Source of the DNA: Enterospora canceri
Lineage: Eukaryota > Microsporidia > Enterocytozoonidae
Assembly: GCA_002087915.1 (NCBI GenBank)
Contig: LWDP01000048.1
Location: 1-13,642, forward strand
Direction: 5' to 3'
Length of the DNA stretch: 13,642 bases
Shown here in pieces: positions 2,749 to 13,301 of this stretch. The notes beneath the pieces were generated by a model. It was not told where the DNA came from. It worked only from the letters and a program-made list of their open reading frames with translations, and made no database searches. Both the position numbers and the translations under genes were made by a program. Each line of letters opens with the position of its first letter. Positions within the stretch are counted from its first letter, which is position 1.

Positions 2749-2771
2749 ATTCCAGTAAAGATTGCCCATCA

Positions 2772-4535
2772 ATGACTGACTGCAAAATTGGATACAAAAA
2801 CAGTAAGGCCCAATTCACCAGAACCAAGGCGTACACCGCAATTCAGAAGTTCATTGCTGAAATTGACCAGGGAATAAAGTCCACAACTGATGCAAGTGAT
2901 GCTGATCAGATACTGCCTGAACTGAAGGCAGCAGCCGATATCATTGAGAAGACTGAGCTGTCAGATGAGCCAACTCGCTTCGCAAACAGGGCAATGGTCG
3001 ACGTAATCAGAAAAATGGAGCAAATCAAACCAGATAACCTCTATTTCATGGAGTCATTTGGAAACAGGGTGCGAATGGACTATGGAACAGGACACGAGTT
3101 GAACTTCCTCTGCTACCTCTTTGTTCTACGCGACTACGACTTCACCAGAAATGAGGACGTTGATTTTGTGGTAGAAAACATGAAGTTCTACATGGAATCA
3201 GTGAGGAAGTTCATCACCAAATTCAACCTGGAGCCGGCTGGCTCTCGTGGATGCTGGTCCATCGATGACTTCAGTCTCCTTGGATGCGTGTTTGGAAGCA
3301 GTCTTCTGGTGAAACAGGATGAGATGAGCCCGTTCTACAGGAAGCACATTGACATGTGGCAGATGGCAGTATCAAATCCAAATCCACTGCTACGTAGAAT
3401 TCTGATTCAGGAACCAATCAAAATTAATAAGGGGATGTTACGGATGTACTACGAGAGTGTTTTAGAGAGGTTTGTGGTGACACAGCACTTTATATACAGC
3501 AGTAAGCTGAGTGATGAATTGATTGATTATTTGTTTATAATGTTCTGCCTTGTTTCTAACCCAGGTATGATGGGACTGATTACTTTGATCGTACAGGTGT
3601 GGGCTAGTAGCACAATAATGAAGGGTGATAAATTAGATATGGATTTGGATGACAACGTTGAAAAGGTTAAAGGGGGAGTATTCCACAAATTCATAGAGAA
3701 GCATATTGAGAAGGAGTATGATGAGACACATAGGCGTGAGATACCAGGACCAGTAGCAACCAAGAGGGATGCAGTGGCAATTGATCTGGGTGGAAGCACC
3801 CTACGGATCTCTCTATTCGAGTACAACAAGAAGGAAGAGATTCACCACCAAAAGGGCCTATTGGAACATAAAATTGAGAATAAGGTGGAAGAAAGAGTTG
3901 AAAAGTATATTCAGAGGCATTTAGACCTGTTTATGGCGACCAACTCTATCAAGGAGAGTGAGGTAGACATCTTTCTTACGTTTAGCTACGATTTCACTAT
4001 GATATCTCCCAATAGAATCAGACTTCTTGATTTCAGCAAAATATGGCAGTTTCCAAGGGTGAATGAGGCTGAATTTGAGTTTACGCCCTACTGTATTGTA
4101 AATGATTCAGTAGCAGTCGTTCTATCGAAATACGACCCAGAAATGTTCAATATCGCATTTGTCTGTGGAACTGGATTCAACTGCTGCTACGCTGAAGATG
4201 GCATGGTTGTTGATACTGAAATGGGAATGTGTGAATTTGGGAATACCACCCTGGACAGCCTTCTTGCAGGTGGAAACCTGGTTAAGGTGGACGGTAGCTT
4301 TGATTTGACTGATCCACTGACAAAGGAGAGATTGGAGAAGAAGCTGCTTCTGCTGAAGGAGACCATTCTGGTAGTTGTTAGGAAGAAGTGGAATAGGAGC
4401 AAGAAGTTGAATTTGATACTGAATGGATCGGTATTCAAGTCAGGACAGAAGATCATAGATGAAATTGCAGATGAATTGGAGTGTGTGATCACACTCAGTC
4501 AAAATGCTACACTTGAATTCGTAATGAACATGTGA
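2772..4535 (+). CDS. PTPA (PP2A activator)-hexokinase fusion protein
   Basis: One uninterrupted 587-codon frame joins two families. Residues 1-245 are a phosphotyrosyl phosphatase activator (PTPA/Rrd) domain, a PP2A-activating prolyl isomerase: FGN at 96-98 with DYGTGHE at 103-109, EPAGSRGCWSIDDF at 154-167, and a C-terminal NKGMLRMY...VTQHF. Residues about 246-330 are a hydrophobic then acidic linker. Residues about 333-587 resemble hexokinase: phosphate-1 loop DLGGSTLR (338-345), LTFSYDF (402-408), VND with the catalytic Asp445 (443-445), phosphate-2 loop CGTGFN (465-470) and DTEMG (481-485), whose Glu483 matches the sugar-binding Glu. The kinase half is only about 255 residues against the usual 440-480. 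The block after DTEMG, normally containing PGKQxFEKMxSGxYLGE, is missing. The GVDGS adenosine motif has become LNGS, and the final SEDGSGKGAA motif is lost. PTPA activity is likely intact; sugar phosphorylation is doubtful. Start chosen at the first ATG, preceded by CCCATCA. Confidence 0.9.
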   Translation: MTDCKIGYKNSKAQFTRTKAYTAIQKFIAEIDQGIKSTTDASDADQILPELKAAADIIEKTELSDEPTRFANRAMVDVIRKMEQIKPDNLYFMESFGNRVRMDYGTGHELNFLCYLFVLRDYDFTRNEDVDFVVENMKFYMESVRKFITKFNLEPAGSRGCWSIDDFSLLGCVFGSSLLVKQDEMSPFYRKHIDMWQMAVSNPNPLLRRILIQEPIKINKGMLRMYYESVLERFVVTQHFIYSSKLSDELIDYLFIMFCLVSNPGMMGLITLIVQVWASSTIMKGDKLDMDLDDNVEKVKGGVFHKFIEKHIEKEYDETHRREIPGPVATKRDAVAIDLGGSTLRISLFEYNKKEEIHHQKGLLEHKIENKVEERVEKYIQRHLDLFMATNSIKESEVDIFLTFSYDFTMISPNRIRLLDFSKIWQFPRVNEAEFEFTPYCIVNDSVAVVLSKYDPEMFNIAFVCGTGFNCCYAEDGMVVDTEMGMCEFGNTTLDSLLAGGNLVKVDGSFDLTDPLTKERLEKKLLLLKETILVVVRKKWNRSKKLNLILNGSVFKSGQKIIDEIADELECVITLSQNATLEFVMNM

Positions 4536-5731: not shown

Positions 5732-6532
5732 CTATTCAAGCTTCCTGACCTGCTTCTTGAGGGCCCTTTCTGTCTCAGCCTGCTGCCTCAGTATTTGACA
5801 TATGCATCTCTCCCTATCAACAAACATCGTCTCACGGCCATTCTGCTGGGCAGAATACTTCACAACTTGGCCTGTGCATCGACAGTAGTCCTCTCGAATC
5901 ATCAGGGAGTTCGTGGCGTAGAAAGAGCGCCTTTCGTCAATCAGAAGGTGCGCCAGGTGGCTGAAGTTGTGTCTGATGATCGTCTGACGCAGCTGCCTGC
6001 GTTCTTCTATGAATATGTTATGCGCCTGTCCATTTCTTGGGGAGCTCATGGAGCGTGGATGGGCAAATGGACTTGGATTCCAGTTCCACTCTCTGCCTCT
6101 TTGCTCCGTTTTATGTCCAGTTGCCATCTTCTCGTTGTTTATTGAAACATTTTTATCAGCTGCTTTTCTTGCCTTGACTGGTCCCCTTGCTTTTTTGACT
6201 TGCCTACGTTTTTCAGTAATTTGATGCCTTTCTCGCATATTGCGAATGATTTCATTGTGCAGAATGTCTCTAGTGCTCGTGGCCTTCTGAACTGCGCTAG
6301 TGAAGTGTGTGCTGGCCTTGGTGAATGGCATTCTTCCGCCCTGGGTCTCATTTGTCCCAGTTTGCTTCGTTTTATCCTGATCCATATTTTGATTTTGAAA
6401 CAGAATTGAACTATTATTCTCACAGAGATCGCAATGTGAAACACATCCCGTCTTATGGCCCATTCTCTCCAACTTCTGGTGACATGAGATGCCTGGAATC
6501 CGCTGATTACAATTGCTCATATTGTGTTCCAT
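5732..6532 (-). CDS. Unrecognised basic Cys/His-containing 266-aa protein
   Basis: The open frame extends upstream to a TTG at 6574, but the first ATG is at 6532 (266 aa) and has CCC nine bases ahead of it. A second ATG at 6520 is possible. I do not recognise the family. Residues 17-37 hold a cluster of possible metal ligands (Cys17, His18, His26, Cys30, His33, Cys34, Cys37) that could bind zinc. Residues about 95-128 are very basic (ERHQITEKRR, QVKKARGPVK), like a nuclear localisation or nucleic-acid-binding segment. Residues 172-266 are Arg/Gln/Glu-rich and probably helical, ending in a likely coiled coil (ILRQQAETERALKKQ). A nuclear or RNA-associated role would fit but is only inference. 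Competing plus-strand frames over the same DNA have shadow-like composition. Confidence 0.65.
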   Translation of the reverse strand: MEHNMSNCNQRIPGISCHQKLERMGHKTGCVSHCDLCENNSSILFQNQNMDQDKTKQTGTNETQGGRMPFTKASTHFTSAVQKATSTRDILHNEIIRNMRERHQITEKRRQVKKARGPVKARKAADKNVSINNEKMATGHKTEQRGREWNWNPSPFAHPRSMSSPRNGQAHNIFIEERRQLRQTIIRHNFSHLAHLLIDERRSFYATNSLMIREDYCRCTGQVVKYSAQQNGRETMFVDRERCICQILRQQAETERALKKQVRKLE

Positions 6533-6855: not shown

Positions 6856-7326
6856 CTATAAATTAGATTGCTCCATCTTTTCCGATAGCCTGTCGAAGTC
6901 AATCTTCCGATTTGTCAGGGTAGCCAGGAAAATGGAAAAGAGTATCCCAATTTCCATTTCAACTGGCTTTTTGTTTTCCAGCAGTCTACGTGAACCACGT
7001 GTGGTCTTCTTCAAATTCATTCTGAGATTTTGGAAGTAGACTTGGACACGTCTCAGTGACAGATTTAGCAAAATTGACAGATTATAGCGTGTGTTTCTAC
7101 CAGGGTATTTGATTAATCTGAAGACAGAATTCAGTAACAGGCGCTGGAGTTCAGTCTTGTTAATGTAACAGTTCTCTGAATATGCCATTATTACTGTCTC
7201 TCGCTTCAGTTTAAGCAGACCCAGGTACGCCTCAATCTCAATATTTTGCATTAAGGTATCAAAAATTTGTTGTGATGAATGATTTGTTGATTTCAGATCA
7301 GGAAACAGATAAACTGATTTACTCAT
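6856..7326 (-). CDS. Divergent homeodomain protein
   Basis: This 156-aa protein carries a homeodomain at about residues 50-109, the fold of a sequence-specific DNA-binding transcription factor. Helix 1 is followed by YPGRNTRYNLSILLNLS (helix 2) and the recognition helix RRVQVYFQNLRMNLKK. In standard homeodomain numbering, Phe49, Gln50, Asn51 and Arg53 are kept (residues 98, 99, 100, 102). Trp48 is replaced by Tyr97 and Arg52 by Leu101. Asn51, which contacts the A of the TAAT core, is intact, so binding to TAAT sites is expected; Gln50 commonly favours TAATTA/G. Short arms flank the domain, without another recognised motif. Microsporidia carry a small family of divergent homeobox genes, and this fits. 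Its start is not preceded by CCC. A later ATG (residue 26) would still leave the whole domain. It diverges from the Tubby-like gene. Confidence 0.85.
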   Translation of the reverse strand: MSKSVYLFPDLKSTNHSSQQIFDTLMQNIEIEAYLGLLKLKRETVIMAYSENCYINKTELQRLLLNSVFRLIKYPGRNTRYNLSILLNLSLRRVQVYFQNLRMNLKKTTRGSRRLLENKKPVEMEIGILFSIFLATLTNRKIDFDRLSEKMEQSNL

Positions 7327-7517: not shown

Positions 7518-8285
7518 ATGAATATCGAGGATGAGACGGTGGTGGTTGAAAATGTGACAGATGTGCATCAGGATGTGGTCGAGGAGATCCGGCCTATTGA
7601 TCTGGATATTTCAGATGAGATTCTGGCCAAAAACGGCATTGAAAAAATAACCAAGGCAAAAGTGGTCGTTGAATCACTGTTGCTGAACAATTACATCTAT
7701 ATCCACTCTGACGACAGGAGACTGATGTGTGCTAAGAGAACTATGCGTGGATTCAACATCTACGACCTAAGAACCAACGAGATCATATGCAAACTATCCG
7801 CCAACATCTTTGGTACGAAATATTCAGTTACGAAACTAAAGGCAAAAACAAGTGAAAACATGCAAGAGATTACGAATAGAGACGGAATGTACAGGTCAAA
7901 GAACAACTCAAGTTCGATGTTGATTAACAACCCGAATCTACTGAATACGCTTCCAGCACTATCAGTCTCATACGACGTGAAGTTTCTAAAGCGAGAAACT
8001 CCCAGGTCATTTAAGATTAAAATGGGCCAGCTTGGTCTCCAGAACAAGCAGCCAATTTACAATCCAGAAACAAACGCATACAGTTTAAATTTCAGTGGTC
8101 GAGTTACGGTAGCATCAGTGAAGAATTTCCAGATTGTTCATCCACTGGAACTCACCTTTATTACGCTTACATTTGGTAAAGAAGGAAATGAATCGTATAT
8201 ACTTGATTTCACACACCCGTGGAATGCATTACATGCATTTTGCGTGGCTTTGACTGCATTGGACCACAAATTGGGATTTGAATGA
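7518..8285 (+). CDS. Tubby-like protein
   Basis: The C-terminal part of this 255-aa protein matches the Tubby domain, a beta barrel around a central helix that binds membrane phosphoinositides, mainly PI(4,5)P2. The signature is clear: SLNFSGRVTVASVKNFQI (189-206), LTFGKEGNESYILDF, and the closing helix HPWNALHAFCVALTALDHKL (233-252). CKLSANIFGTKYSV (91-104) corresponds to the mammalian KLRSNLxGTKFTV strand; the first PI(4,5)P2-contacting Lys is kept (Lys92) but the following Arg is Ser94. The region 108-150 is shortened and Asn/Ser-rich, and the first ~40 residues are acidic and probably disordered. Tubby proteins act in membrane-linked signalling or trafficking; the role in a microsporidian is unknown. 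The WD/propeller-like gene follows 27 bp later on the same strand. No CCC precedes this start. Confidence 0.9.
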   Translation: MNIEDETVVVENVTDVHQDVVEEIRPIDLDISDEILAKNGIEKITKAKVVVESLLLNNYIYIHSDDRRLMCAKRTMRGFNIYDLRTNEIICKLSANIFGTKYSVTKLKAKTSENMQEITNRDGMYRSKNNSSSMLINNPNLLNTLPALSVSYDVKFLKRETPRSFKIKMGQLGLQNKQPIYNPETNAYSLNFSGRVTVASVKNFQIVHPLELTFITLTFGKEGNESYILDFTHPWNALHAFCVALTALDHKLGFE

Positions 8286-8312: not shown

Positions 8313-9143
8313 ATGAACAAAGAAATTTCAAAGCTAAAACCAGTTCGTTATTTTAGATACGCCACTGGTCTCCGATCATTTAAAATCTACCGTGGAATGC
8401 TCTATACGCTTTCTTATCGTGGATTTGGTCTCTCTAAAATGAATAATTCGCCTACAATTCATAAAATGGAGAAACACGTCTTTACAGACATGTTTGTGAC
8501 AGATGAATACGTATACTTCACTACATCACATTCTTGTTATAGTAGCACAATTGATTCATTCAAATTGGAGCACATTTGTGGTATTGATCAATTATCTGTT
8601 TATACTACACAAAGTAACAGATTAATATTGGGTAATAAAGATGGAATTATGGTATATAATGGAGTCAAACAGGTTCACGACTATATATTTGCAGATAAAT
8701 ATGGCATAGTAAGTGATATTAAATCACAAGAGGATGATATATTGATTGGCACTGAATCGGGTAAAATAGTAAGAGTCAGTATTGAAAACAGAAAAGAAGA
8801 TGTCATAATCAGCTGTGGGAAATCAATCATCAAATTTGTAACCTCAGGTGATCTGATTTATGTTCTCACAACTGATTTATCTGGTTACGAAATTATGAAA
8901 ATCACAGCAGATAATAAGGTTCTTGGTAGACTCAAACTATCTGAATATCCATTTGGCATTGTGGAATATAGGAGTGCCATACTGATTCAATTTGAATACT
9001 CGATTGCTTTCTTTGACGATAATTTAGAACCAATTGGGCAGAAAACCAGTCATATTCAAATCAAACAGATTTCAATAGAAAAAGATGCCTGTTTCATAGG
9101 CTATTCATGTGGCCTAATTGAACAAGTTCTCCTGAATAAATAA
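8313..9143 (+). CDS. Unknown 276-aa protein, possible beta-propeller
   Basis: A complete frame begins at ATG 8313, with CCC three bases before it (AGCCCAC). The sequence is rich in short beta-like segments separated by turns, including repeating units such as LILGNKDGIMVYNG (about 104-117), ILIGTESGKIVRVS and CFIGYSCGLIEQVL. Their spacing of about 40-50 residues resembles a divergent WD40-type propeller with perhaps five or six blades. I see no canonical GH...WD repeats, so the assignment is structural guesswork. There is no signal peptide or transmembrane segment. It lies 27 bp downstream of the Tubby-like gene and ends 29 bp from the convergent eS24 gene. A scaffold or complex subunit would be typical for such a fold. 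Confidence 0.8.
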   Translation: MNKEISKLKPVRYFRYATGLRSFKIYRGMLYTLSYRGFGLSKMNNSPTIHKMEKHVFTDMFVTDEYVYFTTSHSCYSSTIDSFKLEHICGIDQLSVYTTQSNRLILGNKDGIMVYNGVKQVHDYIFADKYGIVSDIKSQEDDILIGTESGKIVRVSIENRKEDVIISCGKSIIKFVTSGDLIYVLTTDLSGYEIMKITADNKVLGRLKLSEYPFGIVEYRSAILIQFEYSIAFFDDNLEPIGQKTSHIQIKQISIEKDACFIGYSCGLIEQVLLNK

Positions 9144-9648: not shown

Positions 9649-9876
9649 TTAATCTACTGGTTTCTTATAATTGTGCTGTTTCATCAACCCTTGTACCTTT
9701 CTTAGGCCATTTTTTGCTTCAGAAGAATTCTTATTTGTTAGCTTGCATATTTCTAAGTCCAATGCATAATACGCGTACATCTTCTCTAGTTCTCTATTCA
9801 AATCATCTGAACCACCATTTGCTACCGTGTTCTCTATTTTATCAAGCAAATCCAAAATGTCATTTATTTTTTCCAT
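9649..9876 (-). CDS. Small unknown helical protein, 75 aa
   Basis: The frame can be read from a TTG at 9999, inside Ubc12, but that part is a shadow of Ubc12. The first ATG is at 9876 with CCC immediately in front of it, giving a 75-aa acidic then basic protein (MEKINDILDLLDKIENTVAN at its start). It is predicted to be two or three helices, without Cys clusters or membrane segments. I do not recognise it. It begins 7 bp after the Ubc12 stop, and its stop is 77 bp before the eS24 start, so it fills what would otherwise be a roughly 310-bp gap. A small subunit of a larger complex is plausible but not shown. Confidence 0.65.
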   Translation of the reverse strand: MEKINDILDLLDKIENTVANGGSDDLNRELEKMYAYYALDLEICKLTNKNSSEAKNGLRKVQGLMKQHNYKKPVD

Positions 9877-9883
9877 GGGTTTT

Positions 9884-10309
9884 CTACATTTCCTGTTTTT
9901 TTTCACATTCTTTGATTTTCTCCATAAATTTAACTGGATCAAATTGAAGCATGTTGGCTGCTTCTTCGTTAAATGGATCCTCTTCTGAGACATTCTCAAA
10001 TATTTCTATCAGGCTCAAAACAGCACTATTTATGTTGTATGATGGCATCCAGCCATCTCGTAGGATCTTTAGGCAGACTACGCCTTCATAGATGTTAGGA
10101 TGGAATGTTGGTGTCTGACAATACAGCTTTGGTCCTACAAATGGATAATCATCTGGAAAAACCAGCCGGAATGTGTATTTCTTCTTATAATACATGCTAT
10201 TGAATCTCATGGTAAATGTCAGCACATTCTCTTCCAATTTCATGTTTTCTAATTTGATTACAAGATTATTCAAGTCATCTTTGACACGCAACCTAGCAAA
10301 AATTGACAT
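9884..10309 (-). CDS. UBC12: NEDD8-conjugating E2 enzyme, Ubc12-like
   Basis: This 141-aa protein is a ubiquitin-fold conjugating enzyme (E2). It has the HPN motif at 70-72 and the catalytic Cys79 in VVCLKILRDGW. The ILR-D-W sequence after the cysteine, INS at 93-95 and EDPFNEEAA at 110-118 match Ubc12/UBE2M, which transfers NEDD8/Rub1 to cullins, better than ubiquitin E2s. The N-terminus is much shorter than in animal Ubc12: only about six residues (MSIFAR) precede the first helix, so the long E1-docking tail is largely absent. The C-terminal helices are trimmed too. This fits microsporidian protein shortening. ATG 10309 has CCC three bases upstream. It diverges from the 90-aa gene across 108 bp. 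Confidence 0.88.
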   Translation of the reverse strand: MSIFARLRVKDDLNNLVIKLENMKLEENVLTFTMRFNSMYYKKKYTFRLVFPDDYPFVGPKLYCQTPTFHPNIYEGVVCLKILRDGWMPSYNINSAVLSLIEIFENVSEEDPFNEEAANMLQFDPVKFMEKIKECEKKQEM

Positions 10310-11623: not shown

Positions 11624-12235
11624 TTACTCGACATAATCCATATCATCAGATATGTTGAAGTTCTTATTGAAGTCTCTTCTTTCTATAGGCAACCTACCAC
11701 AAACGTACCCTTGTATCGTGTAAATGTCATCTGTTACCTCATTTATGCTATCCTTAAACATATTGACATCATCCCTTAATTTGATGAATTCCTTCTTTGA
11801 TAGCCTATTTGCCTTCTCTTTGGTTTCTTCTAGGGCTGTTACTTGTTTCTTAAGCTTGTTATATTTCTCCAATAGCACGATTCTTTCTTCTGTCTCCTCA
11901 CGCTTTCCCTTCATCTCTTCAATCCTTATCTTATACTCCTTGTTCTGACTCTTCATCTCTGCCAGTTCATCTTGTAGCTTTTCTGTATTACATTGGATCC
12001 TGTGGTGATCCTGATACATGAATCTCCAATACAAATTGCTTGATCCTGCCTTTTCACAATTGATTTTGTTGTCATTGATTAGCTCACTCAACAGATCTTT
12101 AAGTATCATAGAAGATATCCCACAGTATTTTGGTATCTTCTTTTCTAGCTCCTTTAAAACGAATACCTCTGAAGAAGACATAAACCAGTTCACTATTTTC
12201 TGGTGTTTCTCGTCCTTGGAAACTTTTTTGACCAT
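11624..12235 (-). CDS. MND1: Meiotic nuclear division protein 1 (Mnd1)
   Basis: This 203-aa protein matches Mnd1 along its whole length. Mnd1 pairs with Hop2 to stimulate Dmc1/Rad51 strand invasion during meiotic recombination. Residues 6-72 form the winged-helix domain: KDEKHQKIVNWFMSSSEVF, LKELEKKIPK, GISSM and ELINDNKINCEKAGSSNLYW parallel the Mnd1 pattern ending in GTSNYYW. Residues about 80-165 are a heptad-like Lys/Glu/Leu coiled coil containing EETEER (113-118). The C-terminal cap DDIYTIQGYVCGR...FNISDDMDY (169-201) matches the conserved end IFxIKxW...FGIPEDFDYI. The length is as expected (about 205). The start has CCCC just upstream. It is followed after 59 bp by the calcineurin-B-like start. 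Confidence 0.95.
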   Translation of the reverse strand: MVKKVSKDEKHQKIVNWFMSSSEVFVLKELEKKIPKYCGISSMILKDLLSELINDNKINCEKAGSSNLYWRFMYQDHHRIQCNTEKLQDELAEMKSQNKEYKIRIEEMKGKREETEERIVLLEKYNKLKKQVTALEETKEKANRLSKKEFIKLRDDVNMFKDSINEVTDDIYTIQGYVCGRLPIERRDFNKNFNISDDMDYVE

Positions 12236-12509: not shown

Positions 12510-13301
12510 CTAAAAAAGCAGATCCTGGTTTACGTGTCTAACTACAAACTGTAGAAACACGTTCTTCTCATTTACAATTGTTGCCTTCACCACAGTCTCA
12601 TTCTCAAATGCCTGAATGAATATAAAATCAAGCATTTTATAAACACTCTGCATGCACCTGGCCCAAGAAGTATCACAGGTGAAACTATACCTATTCGACT
12701 TCAGTATTTCTATTGGAATGCGTATCTGTTCATTTAGTACGTCATTTGTTTGAGATACCGTTAGATTTTTACCAATTGAAAACTTGCTATTGCCCCTGGG
12801 AAAATAATTCAGCATTTCTTTACGCAGGATGAATTCAGCTATGGAATCACCTGCTACTTGATAGTTGATGGCTTCATTGTGGTTACAGAATGGAATTGAG
12901 ATATAATTACTGCTCTGTTCGCATATAAACGGTCGATCTAGTTGGACTATATAGGCAGATGGATTAATTTCCATATATTTCTGTTGAAATATCTTCTCAA
13001 TTGTCTTGGGTGTAACAGTTTCCATGTTAAATGATTCGTTGATAAAGATAAGTCCATCTGCAACTACAAAATACCCGGTATCAAACATATTGAGCATTAT
13101 CATAAGATCTTTGTAGAAAATAGCAAAAGCTGTTTCAAAATTTGCAATGAAGTGGTTGTTTTGAAAGGTTGTTGTGGTGCAATTGTGTGACTGAATGGAT
13201 ATTTTTGTTTTGCTTATGTTTATGTGTATTATTGTAGAGCTGTTGTGTATTTTAAGCAATTTTTTCAACAAGAGGAGATTGTGTATGATAAAAATTTGCA
13301 T
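12510..13301 (-). CDS. Possible Rad1-like 9-1-1 checkpoint clamp subunit
   Basis: The frame extends to a TTG at 13319, but ATG 13301 is directly preceded by AATTGCCCA, so I take 263 aa. The N-terminus (HNLLLLKKLLKIHNSSTIIH, then KISIQSHNCTTTTFQNNHFI) resembles the first strand-helix-strand unit of the PCNA-like fold as seen in Rad1. The end (SNRYSFT, then NEKNVFLQFVVRHVNQDLLF) resembles the last strands of Rad1 (NRYKI..., GFLSLQYMIR). The length fits the family (about 280). The 9-1-1 clamp is loaded at damaged DNA to activate checkpoint kinases. The match is by eye, with no diagnostic motif, and Hus1 or an unrelated protein remain possible. It ends 41 bp before eS30. Confidence 0.6.
   Translation of the reverse strand: MQIFIIHNLLLLKKLLKIHNSSTIIHINISKTKISIQSHNCTTTTFQNNHFIANFETAFAIFYKDLMIMLNMFDTGYFVVADGLIFINESFNMETVTPKTIEKIFQQKYMEINPSAYIVQLDRPFICEQSSNYISIPFCNHNEAINYQVAGDSIAEFILRKEMLNYFPRGNSKFSIGKNLTVSQTNDVLNEQIRIPIEILKSNRYSFTCDTSWARCMQSVYKMLDFIFIQAFENETVVKATIVNEKNVFLQFVVRHVNQDLLF

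Follow-up and report, generated by a model that had tools for sequence, protein, structure and literature searches.

Secreted hexokinases have been described from several microsporidia, among them Trachipleistophora hominis (HK1-3), Nosema bombycis, Nematocida and Antonospora (PMC7017984, PMC6460350, PMC3879972). A signal peptide on hexokinase was predicted in most of the microsporidian species analysed (PMC3879972), and hexokinases 2 and 3 of T. hominis lie outside the parasite cell, within a coat (PMC6460350). For Ecytonucleospora (Enterocytozoon) hepatopenaei, one hexokinase, an incomplete glycolytic pathway and the use of a secreted hexokinase are described (PMC10706788). A CCC-like motif lies directly before gene starts in E. 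cuniculi, where 5' untranslated regions are under 7 nt, and a CCC-like start signal is also found in ribosomal-protein genes of E. bieneusi (PMC2803860). The kinase half of the locus described here resembles the secreted microsporidian hexokinases in having a signal-peptide-like leader before a hexokinase-like domain, and it has counterparts of their catalytic Asp, of the Thr at the ATP site and of the first Glu that contacts glucose. It differs from T. hominis HK2 and HK3, which are reported to keep all five of the cited active-site residues (PMC6460350), in that its large domain is shortened and its reading frame stays open upstream into a PTPA domain.

The window, meaning the whole stretch of DNA that was analysed, is one entire contig of 13,642 bases from a draft assembly of 2,242,678 bases in 75 contigs. 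On its plus strand, a frame of 587 codons runs from an ATG at 2772 to a stop at 4535 with no internal stop codon, and there are no ambiguous bases (N) between 2640 and 4680. In a search of the assembly, the PTPA and Hexokinase_1 profiles match at a single site, which is this frame; given its 587 codons, both profile matches and their restriction to one site in the genome, the frame first noticed in the initial annotation is real and above chance. Of that description, one open frame with both domains stands, while the PTPA domain, called apparently intact there, is about 21 residues short. A PTPA-hexokinase fusion in Enterocytozoonidae, mentioned in the initial annotation, is said to have been reported by Wiredu Boakye et al. 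in 2017; if so, its domains and their order would match those found here. Among the literature matches listed there is no report of such a fusion in Enterocytozoonidae, and one microsporidian paper among them (PMC12239571) contains the term "PTPA" once. That the two halves form one gene does not follow from the open frame; what appear to be a gene-start motif and leader-like sequence lie at the junction. The features of the locus are as follows.

2765-2767, plus strand: CCC-like motif 4 nt 5' of the frame's first ATG (motif scan)
2772-4535, plus strand: complete open frame of 587 aa, PTPA half and hexokinase-like half
2772-3512, plus strand: PTPA half, about residues 1-247 (Pfam match, modelled PTPA fold)
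3513-3566, plus strand: spacer-like stretch, about residues 248-265, past the point where the nearest PTPA proteins stop (comparison)
3560-3562, plus strand: internal CCC-like motif 4 nt 5' of the Met266 codon (motif scan)
3567-3611, plus strand: Met266 with the signal-peptide-like leader that it opens, MMGLITLIVQVWASS; a 322-aa hexokinase-like protein may begin here (sequence)
3567-4535, plus strand: hexokinase-like part as read from Met266 (sequence alignments)
3768-4064, plus strand: Hexokinase_1 match, residues 333-431 (Pfam)
3783-3800, plus strand: phosphate-1 loop DLGGST, residues 338-343 (sequence)
4104-4106, plus strand: catalytic Asp445, in VNDSV 443-447 (alignment)
4167-4181, plus strand: phosphate-2 loop GTGFN, residues 466-470 (sequence)
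4218-4220, plus strand: sugar-contact Glu483, in DTEMG 481-485 (alignment)
4317-4343, plus strand: LTKERLEKK, residues 516-524, possible degenerate FEKM block, ambiguous (by eye)
4422-4439, plus strand: NGSVFK, residues 551-556, degenerate adenosine motif (by eye)

In the Pfam search, the first half of the frame scored 148.8 bits with PTPA (PF03095; E 2.9e-43, curated cut-off 27), with the best stretch at residues 6-187 and a second stretch at positions 3417-3506, and sequence matches to the human and yeast PTPA structures were found at E 5e-24 and weaker. A PTPA fold was predicted for residues 11-250 in the structure model (block pLDDT 61-96); all 10 PDB structures matching that model at E <= 0.001 are PTPA. 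The shortfall relative to human PTPA lies between residues 188 and 213 (about 3333-3410), and the conserved segment at this place is also missing in P0012, P0002 and P0003; in P0012 the gap follows the FGSS motif, as it does here, and a low-complexity insert lies near it. PTPA proteins of this lineage are without one conserved internal segment. In the PTPA tree, the query (P0001) groups with P0012, a standalone 342-residue PTPA of E. hepatopenaei (99/98), and the two adjoin P0002 and P0003; an Enterocytozoonidae affinity of the query is supported by this tree, which comprises 27 rows of a single gene and in which the P0012 branch is long and its composition unusual. P0012 differs in ending 12 residues past the QHF motif, with no hexokinase part. 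A PP2A catalytic subunit is encoded in the same genome at G000:C51, its best PDB match to PP2A-C scoring 442.8 bits as against 301.6 for the best PP1, and its C-terminal end reads PDYFL; these matches support the view that the genome encodes a PP2A for the PTPA half to act on.

For the second half, Hexokinase_1 gave a weak match above its cut-off (30.5 bits, E 3.9e-7, cut-off 24.3), and Hexokinase_2, which represents the large domain, stayed under its own (11.1 bits, cut-off 24). The profile check proposed in the initial annotation thus places PTPA and Hexokinase_1 above their thresholds and Hexokinase_2 below; a Hexokinase_2 search of the genome returned no match, and the control genomes gave none in the same search either. 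Both phosphate loops, Asp445 and Glu483 were correctly described as kept, being located in the DLGGST, GTGFN, VNDSV and DTEMG motifs, and TFSYDF is present at residues 403-408. The functional residues of yeast hexokinase are given as Asp211, Thr234, Glu269, Glu302 and Ser419 (PMC6460350); by our reading of the alignment, Asp445, Thr467 and Glu483 are the counterparts of the first three, and Ser553, judged by eye, is perhaps that of Ser419. Human hexokinase I (1dgk, residues 66-247) and glucokinase (3imx, residues 62-232) align with the kinase half over the small domain and the phosphate loops, and the sequence match stops before the rest of the large domain.

The earlier estimate that the kinase half is about 200 residues short is close to what was measured: from DLGGST to the end there are 250 residues, compared with 438 in P0010, an intact homologue with both hexokinase Pfam domains that served as length reference, a difference of 188. 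Less of the earlier inventory of lost motifs can be kept. The canonical forms of GVDGS and the terminal glycine motif are gone, as had been said, but the degenerate NGSVFK remains and is followed by SQNAT (576-580), which by eye occupies the expected place of the terminal glycine motif; the MAFFT alignment does not show this pairing. Likewise, the PGKQxFEKM block had been called lacking, and in a three-row alignment the position of yeast Glu302 does pair with Leu525, but LTKERLEKK may be a degenerate remnant of it. Its Glu522 is three residues away from Leu525 and 39 after Glu483, the corresponding pair being 48 apart in both P0010 and P0011; because a glutamate is nearby at this plausible distance, loss of the second glucose contact cannot be asserted. 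The clear loss is of about 90-100 large-domain residues ahead of the adenosine-type motif: this motif follows the DTEMG/NTEM glutamate by 68-69 residues here and by about 170 in P0010, and follows Glu522 by 30 residues as against 122. Inspection by eye of both remaining plus-strand frames between 4200 and 4640 showed no frame-shifted kinase remnant. Structure prediction, also suggested in the initial annotation, folded the PTPA half as a PTPA and gave no usable model for the kinase half: a model from two distant homologues had a mean pLDDT of 29.6, and in the full-length model pLDDT was below 50 at 275-377 and 397-509 and about 50-73 at stretches such as 510-538 and 553-574. The sole hexokinase-type PDB match noted among the 50 rows listed, 1v4t, was not significant (E 3.8). 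Judged from these motifs and lengths, the kinase half probably has little or no kinase activity.

The internal CCC motif stands at the same distance from Met266, 4 nt, as the first CCC motif does from the frame's own ATG. Such a motif lies within 12 nt upstream of 63 of 98 other ORF first ATGs, whereas just 15 of 724 ATGs internal to ORFs have one; at widths from 8 to 15 nt, the counts are 51-64 of 98 ORF starts versus 11-22 of 724. The counts come from the window together with 12 further 10-kb stretches of the same genome, 13 sources in all, and take the largest ORFs (at least 120 codons, mutual overlap under 60 nt), omitting the fusion frame as well as any ORF whose start is less than 40 nt from a source end; internal ATGs are in-frame and at least 60 codons inside the ORF, and a part of the 98 ORFs may be spurious or truly start later. 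The leader after Met266 is short, about nine mostly hydrophobic residues with one Gln. Among 458 other internal Met residues none combines a CCC motif with a leader-like sequence, 12 having the motif and four the leader, where the leader threshold is Met266's own score, chosen post hoc. Met458 in the same frame is likewise preceded by CCC, 4 nt away, so that the motif by itself is not decisive, and its use as sole evidence of an internal start was dropped.

The position of Met266 relative to the end of PTPA proteins can also be compared. It is the 26th residue past QHF, and the four nearest PTPA relatives, P0012, P0002, P0003 and P0004, extend 12, 18, 16 and 14 residues beyond that motif to their C-terminal ends. 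Among the 119 other PTPA proteins listed, the QHF-type tail is at most 20 residues long in 96 and exceeds 26 in 23, 22 of the long tails measuring 30-92 residues and that of P0121 327. The excess past QHF is long enough to hold a spacer of some dozens of nucleotides; elsewhere in the window, 27 nt separate a gene end at 8285 from a gene start at 8313. The frame's two most AT-rich 60-nt windows cover 3486-3548, by the narrow margin of 72% to 70% for the next, some of which lie in other parts of the frame. An intron at the junction was set aside, the frame being open without one. Taken together, the junction looks like a gene start from which a hexokinase-like protein would be expressed separately and exported.

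Other reading frames of the window include a Tubby-family protein at 7518-8285 (plus strand; Pfam Tub, E 1.8e-31), a homeodomain protein at 6856-7326 (minus strand; E 7.9e-10) and, at 11624-12235 (minus strand), a homologue of the meiotic recombination factor Mnd1 (Pfam, 80.2 bits). Two minus-strand ORFs of 266 and 263 aa, at 5732-6532 and 12510-13301, have no Pfam matches at thresholds of E 1 and E 0.01. The minus-strand ORFs 9649-9993 and 9884-10309 overlap by 110 bases; the longer encodes a ubiquitin-conjugating enzyme, and the true start of the shorter may be later.

Besides hexokinase, six glycolytic enzyme families were probed in the assembly. Genome searches gave no match for PFK, PGK, enolase or PK, although they detected PGK, enolase and PK in 14 of 14 control genomes each and PFK in 9 of 14. 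PGI and GAPDH were found, the former at G000:C36:57056-58648 (minus strand) and the latter, apparently intact with both domains and the SCTTN motif, at G000:C2:29234-29704 (plus strand). The loss of glycolysis supposed earlier therefore agrees with the search results for four families and not with those for these two; it is likely but unproven for this genome, since it depends on how complete the assembly is. If the assembly is near complete, the retention of PGI and GAPDH without the other four represents a partial decay of the pathway. A second complete hexokinase gene, which would have weakened the functional reading first proposed, was sought, and the assembly holds no other Hexokinase_1 match. 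Chitin synthase is encoded, as are two genes of the ATP/ADP-translocase type.

The reading we favour, at a probability of a little under one half (about 0.48), is that of a locus with two starts, which would yield a long fusion and a short exported kinase-like protein. On this view, a PTPA gene in a compact microsporidian genome of the Enterocytozoonidae type would have had a hexokinase gene just downstream; the stop codon between them would have vanished, so that transcripts from 2772 continue into the kinase, while the hexokinase gene would have retained its own start, with the signal-peptide-like leader and, before Met266, the CCC-type motif. A shorter mRNA beginning at Met266 would then give a 322-residue exported hexokinase-like protein, and the long product would be a PTPA(-kinase) protein that stays in the cytosol and acts on PP2A. 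Provided the sequence is correct, any transcript begun at 2772 has to continue into the kinase, and both long and short products are therefore to be expected. The exported part would keep the hexose and phosphate loops and miss about 100 large-domain residues; because of that loss it is likelier to bind sugar or phosphate, or to act non-enzymatically, than to phosphorylate glucose well. The frame, its domains, the motif, the leader-like sequence and the shortening are observed parts of this account; two transcripts, export and loss of activity we infer. More tentatively, and with the odds somewhat against it, the nested starts might provide two proteins, a PTPA-hexokinase chimera kept in the cytosol and controlled through PP2A, and an exported hexokinase-like pseudoenzyme with a sugar pocket, no longer glycolytic, the locus being then a snapshot of compaction-driven fusion in a lineage that is losing glycolysis.

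The model of the initial annotation was a single fusion protein only, in which a hydrophobic stretch, either linker or membrane anchor, follows PTPA, and the degenerate hexokinase serves as the sensor or docking part for PP2A control. This seems less likely than the two-start reading, even though the frame is open from a CCC-marked ATG through to 4535, PTPA and Hexokinase_1 are matched nowhere else in the assembly, two helices, 253-262 and 264-283, are predicted with low confidence for the linker (block pLDDT 64, 55 and 47) and the initial annotation mentions such a fusion in Enterocytozoonidae: the junction bears the CCC motif and leader-like sequence, and the nearest protein in the PTPA tree, that of E. 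hepatopenaei, stands alone. A protein search found 405 of 449 candidates, and among the 120 listed, an incomplete set from which P0002 and P0003, found by another search, are absent, the query alone has a hexokinase domain, the Pfam column being without one for all 119 others. P0121 (650 aa, PF03095 and PF04176, jgi) is a PTPA with an extra C-terminal domain, but this is TIP41 and not a sugar kinase; the protein carries two PP2A-linked domains in one chain. Two further protein searches gave no fused relatives among 9 and 3 proteins, the query included in each, and none of the three proteins of the kinase-half search is by name a hexokinase of another Enterocytozoonidae. Viral and prokaryote contig scans gave no relatives, and the protein, viral and prokaryote searches yielded no kinase-half relative close enough to test conservation of the junction. 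A sugar sensor or pseudo-enzyme tethered to a phosphatase is possible, and it accords with the shortened kinase half and the encoded PP2A catalytic subunit, but it presumes one protein where the junction resembles a separate start.

The CCC motif at Met266 could be a relic. It could also, along with the spacing, the AT-richness and the leader, mark an ordinary gene boundary between two ordinary neighbours, if a PTPA stop soon after residue 250 were masked, either by a minor variant or by an assembly error at the level of single bases; the assembly is a draft, but the spacer is open throughout and the region around the frame is free of N, and this we consider quite improbable. Whether the kinase half is active is a separate question, compatible with the two-start reading and with its alternatives. 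A minimised but active hexokinase, feeding PGI and chitin synthesis, would be in keeping with the retained active-site loops, Asp445 and Glu483, with Glu522 as a possible replacement for the second glucose-contact Glu and with the presence of PGI and chitin synthase genes in the genome; with 188 residues fewer than P0010, only 30 residues rather than 122 from Glu522 to the adenosine-type motif, degeneration of that motif and of the C-terminal one, and a Hexokinase_2 score less than half its cut-off, it appears unlikely.

We claim newness solely for the internal-start reading of this locus and for the description of the shortening. The two-start reading bears on the question of why Enterocytozoonidae, having lost much of glycolysis, still keep a hexokinase. 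Should the kinase half be separately started, exported and shortened, as that reading has it, then the retained trait may be an export function and not the enzyme; and, if this is true, any reported PTPA-hexokinase "fusion" may need to be re-read as two overlapping genes.
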